Source: Cryptosporangium phraense
GTDB taxonomy: Bacteria > Actinomycetota > Actinomycetes > Mycobacteriales > Cryptosporangiaceae
Direction: 5' to 3'
Length of the DNA: 64,000 nucleotides
Assembly (NCBI RefSeq): GCF_006912135.1
Contig: NZ_VIRS01000005.1
Coordinates: 186,001-250,000, forward strand
Position numbers and translations under genes: made by a program. How positions within the stretch are numbered: position 1 is the first letter of the stretch; every line of letters begins with the position of its first letter. Below are positions 32,679 through 33,782 of this stretch, one piece after another. The notes below the pieces were generated by a model. That model ran no database searches. It was not told the DNA's origin and saw only the letters and a list, made by a program, of their open reading frames with translations.

Positions 32679-32712
32679 GGGGGCTGCCCGCGCGGTTGCG
32701 CGGGCAGCCCCC
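32679..32712. terminator. Strong hairpin after the transporter operon
   Basis: Perfect 15-bp stem, GGGGGCTGCCCGCGC paired with GCGCGGGCAGCCCCC, 4-base loop. It lies between the transporter operon and the convergent small gene of the sod operon, so it likely terminates both. Confidence 0.8.
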
Positions 32713-32720
32713 GGCCCTGG

Positions 32721-33005
32721 TCAGTCGGGAACCGACGCGTTGGCCGCCAGCAGGATCGTCAGATCCTGCACGACCTCGTCGGTCGACTGCCGGGATGCAC
32801 TGGCCAGCAGCGCGATCGCCAGGTCGGCGAGCACGAAGAACCCACCGGCTTTCGCGGCCTCGTCCGGGAAGGACTTCAGCAGTGCCTCGGCGCCCGCGTC
32901 GTCACCGCGGCGGCGGGCCGCGACGACCCCGGCCGCCCGCTGGGCGGCGTCGGTGGCCGCGCGGACGGCGGCGCCCGGCTGGGCCGACTCGGGTCGGGCG
33001 GTCAC
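32721..33005 (-). CDS. Small helical hypothetical protein, coupled to superoxide dismutase
   Basis: A 94-residue, Ala-rich, mostly helical protein ([20 protein letters not shown] ... [20 protein letters not shown]). No family is recognised. GTG 33005 overlaps the TGA of the sod gene, so it is translated with it. No metal-binding cluster is visible. It may help the enzyme or the oxidative-stress response, but that is a guess from position only. Confidence 0.65.
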
Positions 33006-33625
33006 GGCGCCGGCGTGGCCGCCGCGACCGCGGCCGAATAGCGCGCCGCGACGTCGGTCCAGTTGATCAGCGACCACAGCTTCTGCACGTAGTCCGGGCG
33101 CACGTTCTTGTACTGCAGGTAGTACGCGTGTTCCCAGGCGTCGAACACCAGCAGCGGCGTCGTGTTGATGCCGACGTTGCCGTGGTGGTCGTACACCTGG
33201 TGGATGAGCAGCTTGCCGGAGAGCGGCTCGTGCGCCAGCACACCCCAGCCGGAGCCCTGCACGCTGGTCGTGGCGGTGTTGAGCTGCTTCTGGAACGCCT
33301 CGAACGAGCCGAAGTGCTCGCTGATCGCATCCCCGAGGACACCGTCGGGGCGGTCGCCGCCGTCCGGGCTCAAGTTCGACCAGAACTGGGTGTGCAGCAC
33401 GTGCCCGGAGAGGTTGAACGCCAGCGTCTTCTCCAGCCCGACCAGCCCCGTCGGGGTGAAGCCGTCCTTCTCGCGCACCTCCTCCAGTTGATCGAGGGTG
33501 TCGTTGGCGCCCTTGACGTAGGCGGCGTGGTGCTTGGAGTGGTGCAGTTCCAGGATTTCACCGGTGATCGCGGGCTCGAGGGCTCCGTAGTCGTACGGCA
33601 GGTCCGGGAGCGTGTAGGTGGCCAT
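33002..33625 (-). CDS. sodF: Superoxide dismutase, Fe/Mn family
   Basis: A 207-residue Fe/Mn superoxide dismutase. Metal ligands are the His in [15 protein letters not shown] (His28), the His in [12 protein letters not shown], and the Asp and His in [15 protein letters not shown]. It removes superoxide in the cytoplasm. Iron is suggested over manganese by the nearby nickel-control box: in Streptomyces the iron enzyme SodF is repressed by Nur with nickel. Metal use is therefore an inference. Divergent from the nickel permease. Confidence 0.9.
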
Positions 33626-33690: not shown

Positions 33691-33724
33691 ATGCAAGTAT
33701 CTTGCAAGAACATCTTGGTTGCAA
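33691..33724. promoter_or_regulatory. Nur-box-like site between sod and nickel permease
   Basis: ATGCAA-GTATC-TTGCAA (33691-33707) matches the Streptomyces Nur box tTGCaa-N5-ttGCAA with one mismatch, in the 157-base gap between the divergent sod and NiCoT genes. A further TTGCAA palindrome is at 33719-33724. Nur is a Fur-family repressor that, with Ni, shuts off nickel uptake and the iron SOD. Confidence 0.7.
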
Positions 33725-33782
33725 CGGCCAATCAGTGGGGTTAGCCTCGTCGAGGGTTCCGGAGACGGGAAGAGAGATCGGC

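Follow-up and report, generated by a model that had tools for sequence, protein, structure and literature searches.

A putative Nur operator between divergent sodF and nicT genes in Cryptosporangium phraense

Introduction

In Streptomyces coelicolor, boxes recognized by the nickel sensor Nur lie upstream of an Fe/Mn-type superoxide dismutase (SOD) gene and of nickel uptake genes, the importer being NikABCDE (PMC3919588, PMC7055735). The published Nur-box consensus is tTGCaa-N5-ttGCAA (PMC3919588), and nur itself is found beside ygfZ (PMC4531530). The nickel SOD gene, sodN, has a divergent sodX neighbour and no box at two or fewer mismatches, and Nur reportedly does not bind there. The 3′UTR of S. 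coelicolor sodF gives rise to a small RNA, s-SodF, and complementarity of 16–19 nt to the sodN leader has been reported across the Streptomyces examined. A regulator of another type, SrnR/SrnQ, is known for the sodF gene of S. griseus (PMC7055735).

The DNA considered here (the window, a stretch of 64,000 nucleotides from Cryptosporangium phraense) carries sodF directly opposite a nickel transporter gene. The genome shares with S. coelicolor the nur–ygfZ and sodN–sodX arrangements, boxes upstream of an Fe/Mn-type SOD gene and of nickel uptake genes, and a sodN gene free of boxes at the same threshold. It differs in that the importer is NicT rather than NikABCDE, sodF and the importer gene have a single operator between them, sodF overlaps a small gene, and no 16–19 nt pairing between the sodF end and the sodN leader was detected (a Streptomyces control failed as well). 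The Nur circuit, experimentally known from Streptomyces, would thereby extend to another actinomycete genus, where it would be compactly arranged, with nickel entry and a nickel-free SOD both under a single operator.

Results and Discussion

The initial annotation placed an Fe/Mn SOD divergent from a NiCoT permease, with a one-mismatch Nur box between them; open reading frame positions, together with domain and family matches, confirmed the gene pair, and the box was found with exactly the sequence and position given. The features of the locus are:

32680–32711, no strand: GC-rich hairpin with a 14-bp stem (−38.0 kcal/mol), probable terminator after sodF-orf94
32721–33005, minus strand: orf94, small gene of uncertain role, overlapping the sodF stop (GTGA)
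33002–33625, minus strand: sodF, Fe/Mn-type superoxide dismutase, 207 aa (Sod_Fe_N and Sod_Fe_C)
33691–33707, no strand: Nur box 1, ATGCAA-GTATC-TTGCAA (ATGCAAGTATCTTGCAA), one mismatch to tTGCaa-N5-ttGCAA
33783–34910, plus strand: nicT, NiCoT-family nickel transporter, 375 aa (NCBIfam NicT, 549.9 bits, cut-off 450)

The closest solved structures to the sodF product are 8bhx and 1ids, and the M. tuberculosis Fe-SOD is among the closest solved enzymes; its fold domains mark SodF as an Fe/Mn-type SOD, a class within which sequence does not settle between iron and manganese. The nicT product, whose nearest homologs are from Actinoplanes and Streptomyces, also matched the NicO domain, and its presumed substrate is nickel. 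No Pfam or NCBIfam match was obtained for orf94, which adjoins sodF in four relatives (G002, G030, G042 and G018).

Box 1 lies 65 bp from the start of sodF and 75 bp from that of nicT, the location expected of a Nur operator, upstream of sodF and a nickel uptake gene. As the site matches the Nur box and the genome encodes both Nur and a nickel SOD, sodF and nicT are probably an ordinary nickel-regulated pair sharing one operator; very probably, the site is an operator of Nur common to both genes, and both would be repressed through it. In the mechanism that we infer, Ni-Nur dimers would bind 33691–33707, and more weakly 33708–33724, when nickel is sufficient. Bound Ni-Nur would block both promoters, stopping nickel import via NicT and the production of the Fe/Mn-type SOD, and the nickel-replete cell would rely on the nickel SOD encoded elsewhere in the genome. 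When nickel is scarce, Nur would leave the site and the importer and nickel-free SOD would both be made.

Nur might instead control only one of the two genes, the other being a neighbour with its promoter beyond the reach of the operator. Among nicT loci from other actinobacteria, sodF was found within 4 kb of nicT in 6 of 80, in various gene orders, and so the two genes come together repeatedly. These six loci (L022, L028, L030, L050, L061 and L091) have boxes, as the window does, but usually one for each gene, whereas the window has one operator between the two starts; one box for two genes is therefore not the general pattern. A one-gene arrangement would also fit the lack of an assigned sodF promoter, for which intergenic sequence patterns indicated no position; scanning the sodF–nicT intergenic region for generic sigma-70 promoters and terminators likewise gave no match. 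However, the box is similarly close to both starts, and both types of gene have boxes elsewhere. The window species was also compared with three sister species of the genus, one of which (G002) has a sodF gene 89–90% identical to that of the window and divergent from a FecCD-type ABC permease gene rather than nicT (L102, L203). The G002 box is identical, including the mismatch, and so is kept at sodF despite a different neighbour. Control of only one gene is accordingly unlikely. A search that covered the open-licence literature found no publication describing a Nur box at a NiCoT gene.

Control of both genes by Nur implies that the genome encodes this regulator, as the initial annotation had proposed to check. 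Four Fur-family proteins were found, one of them a Nur ortholog whose best solved match is 3eyy (145 bits; next entry 64) and whose gene adjoins ygfZ. His70 and His72 occur in every Nur ortholog examined and are absent from the three other Fur proteins of the genome. The ortholog keeps His at 33, 70, 72, 81, 88, 90 and 126, with Asp at 86, where several relatives also have Asp and S. coelicolor has His, a point against Nur control; these positions were inspected for the histidine metal ligands of S. coelicolor Nur. The nur gene lies within ~5 kb of sodF in two relatives (G008:C3:1843512-1848505 and G035:C41:74011-79593), an independent sign that both genes belong together.

The distribution of boxes was compared with that of nur among 61 relatives, nur being scored at ≥116 bits (all other Fur matches were ≤77). 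Where nur was present, 9 of 11 genomes had a box at sodF, compared with 1 of the 19 without it (p 3.5e-5); for nicT the corresponding counts were 13 of 15 and 3 of 13 (p 0.0016); the p-values, from contingency tables compiled by hand, are optimistic because the genomes are related rather than independent, and one nicT locus without nur (G009) is at a contig end where a box could hardly be seen. Among 110 actinobacterial nicT genes, 51 were preceded by a box at two or fewer mismatches (0.3 in dinucleotide shuffles), as was the case in 10 of 30 sodF upstream regions (0.1 in dinucleotide shuffles). That the box is kept at both gene types, and that its presence follows nur, supports its interpretation as a Nur box.

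A different Fur-family protein or a regulator of the SrnR/SrnQ type could bind the site instead. The genome has three further Fur-family proteins, and Nur-like boxes occur in a few genomes without detected nur, three at nicT and one at sodF (L132 in G015, L145 in G044, L147 in G052 and L124 in G021); in these genomes nur may have diverged or escaped detection, or the motif may serve another regulator. Against this, the site has the Nur motif as published and follows nur in its presence, which makes another regulator distinctly improbable.

Within the 64-kb window, ATGCAAGTATCTTGCAA is the sole match to TTGCAA-N5-TTGCAA at two or fewer mismatches. Such matches averaged 0.15 per shuffled window and occurred in 14 of 100 shuffles, so that the box is only suggestive when judged within 64 kb alone. 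Sites with no more than one mismatch number six in the entire 8.46 Mb genome (an 87-contig draft of 99% completeness), which by arithmetic gives a chance of ~1e-4 for one in a given 157-bp intergenic region. A chance match without function would be compatible with the shuffled windows and with the lack of genome-wide enrichment of two-mismatch sites (26, compared with 51 for a reversed control), but is scarcely credible given that the site is kept in G002 with its mismatch and belongs to a wider pattern in relatives. Other one-mismatch sites, whose neighbours include genes for a sigma factor, an HTH protein and an aldehyde dehydrogenase, were rejected as Nur sites, having no nickel link.

The nickel SOD on which a nickel-replete cell would depend was also sought, and sodN was found together with the divergent protease gene sodX (protease match 57.7 bits, cut-off 63.25). 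The genome-wide site scan found no Nur-box site at sodN at two or fewer mismatches, in agreement with the reported lack of Nur binding at S. coelicolor sodN. The 3′ region of sodF could pair with the sodN leader over 8 nt at best, a length reached in 130 of 200 shuffles; this segment downstream of sodF was rejected as an anti-sodN element, being at shuffle level and not kept in position in G002. In a Streptomyces control (L061, and L022 and L050 tested on the sodN leader of L240), pairings of 7–8 nt were obtained and the known pairing was not reproduced, perhaps because L022 and L050 were paired with the sodN of another species and the sodF of L061 may be a different paralog. As this control failed, the absence of an s-SodF pairing here is a result of the direct comparison alone. 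The second sodN of G002 gave an 11 nt pairing, reached by 1 of 200 shuffles, a weak result among several comparisons. Whether sodN still responds to nickel when there is no s-SodF sequence has become a testable question.

A second TTGCAA palindrome had been noted beyond box 1. It is indeed present at 33719–33724, but a better reading is that it forms one half of a weak box next to box 1. TTGCAA by itself is fairly common (2 copies against 1.6 expected), and so an extra copy carries no weight unless compared across relatives. Nine sites from the genus, representing approximately three independent groups, were therefore aligned on box 1. The best independent register for a further box was +17, with a mean of 6.9 of 12 letters (background 2.6, sd 0.6). 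This register was always on the importer side in the nine sites, and was weaker but visible in relatives. The second TTGCAA is consequently proposed to be the far half of a weaker 17-bp box. In addition, 17 of 50 nicT loci from relatives have TANNNT 17–18 bp after the second half-site, which suggests that Nur half-sites may double as −35 elements. Two hexamers of the window fit this spacing pattern, and are a possible placement of the nicT promoter:

33708–33724, no strand: proposed weaker Nur box 2, GAACAT-CTTGG-TTGCAA, 8/12 consensus letters, adjoining box 1
33719–33724, plus strand: TTGCAA, possible nicT −35 hexamer, 17 bp before TAGCCT
33742–33747, plus strand: TAGCCT, possible nicT −10 hexamer, TANNNT match

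Between sodF and the importer gene, the window and G002 can be aligned from the sodF side across the box as far as the TGCA of the third half-site, beyond which the sequences diverge. The FecCD permease gene is behind a Nur box in the other three genus members, opposite sodF in G002. No match to it was found in the window genome at E < 1e-40, and none of the other three members has nicT. The FecCD loci (L203 3314-6739 in G002, L210 in G003 and L212 in G001) encode a permease, a binding protein and an ATPase, with a SAM methyltransferase in G002 and G003, and the nearest NCBIfam models are those of a hypothetical F420-0 transporter, below cut-off. The FecCD system is a candidate nickel or nickel-chelate importer. 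Given that G002 has the same sodF-side sequence and box, but the FecCD permease where the window has nicT, the simplest reading is that one importer has apparently replaced another within the genus while the operator was kept; the direction of exchange, and a lateral gain of nicT, we only infer.

These observations can be combined, tentatively and with considerable doubt, into a genus-wide picture in which the Nur operator consists of two boxes in tandem and unrelated importers have been swapped behind it, NicT here and the FecCD type in the sisters. If this tandem-operator picture were true, the FecCD importer would be an uncharacterised uptake system for nickel or a nickel chelate, and the link of sodN to nickel would run otherwise than via s-SodF. 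Whether the sisters' FecCD-type importer, behind the same operator, imports nickel can now be tested.

All four genus members (4/4) also have a Nur box upstream of an ECF-type CbiM/PDGLE/CbiQ/ATPase importer (G000:C12:112905-112921, within L204 at G000:C12:107000-118000; the others are L192, L194 and L196). The CbiM-type operon is divergent from a thioredoxin-dependent peroxiredoxin gene, and an importer is thus again opposite an antioxidant gene. Two further sites were observed in the genus. A Nur-box-like sequence without an evident nickel link, TTGCAC-nnCGG-TTGCAA, is kept in three members (L006/L205, L198 and L199) near a sigma-70 family gene, and in G003 an MFS transporter gene (L211 8618-9883) has an upstream 17-bp site identical to the ATGCAAGTATCTTGCAA of the window.
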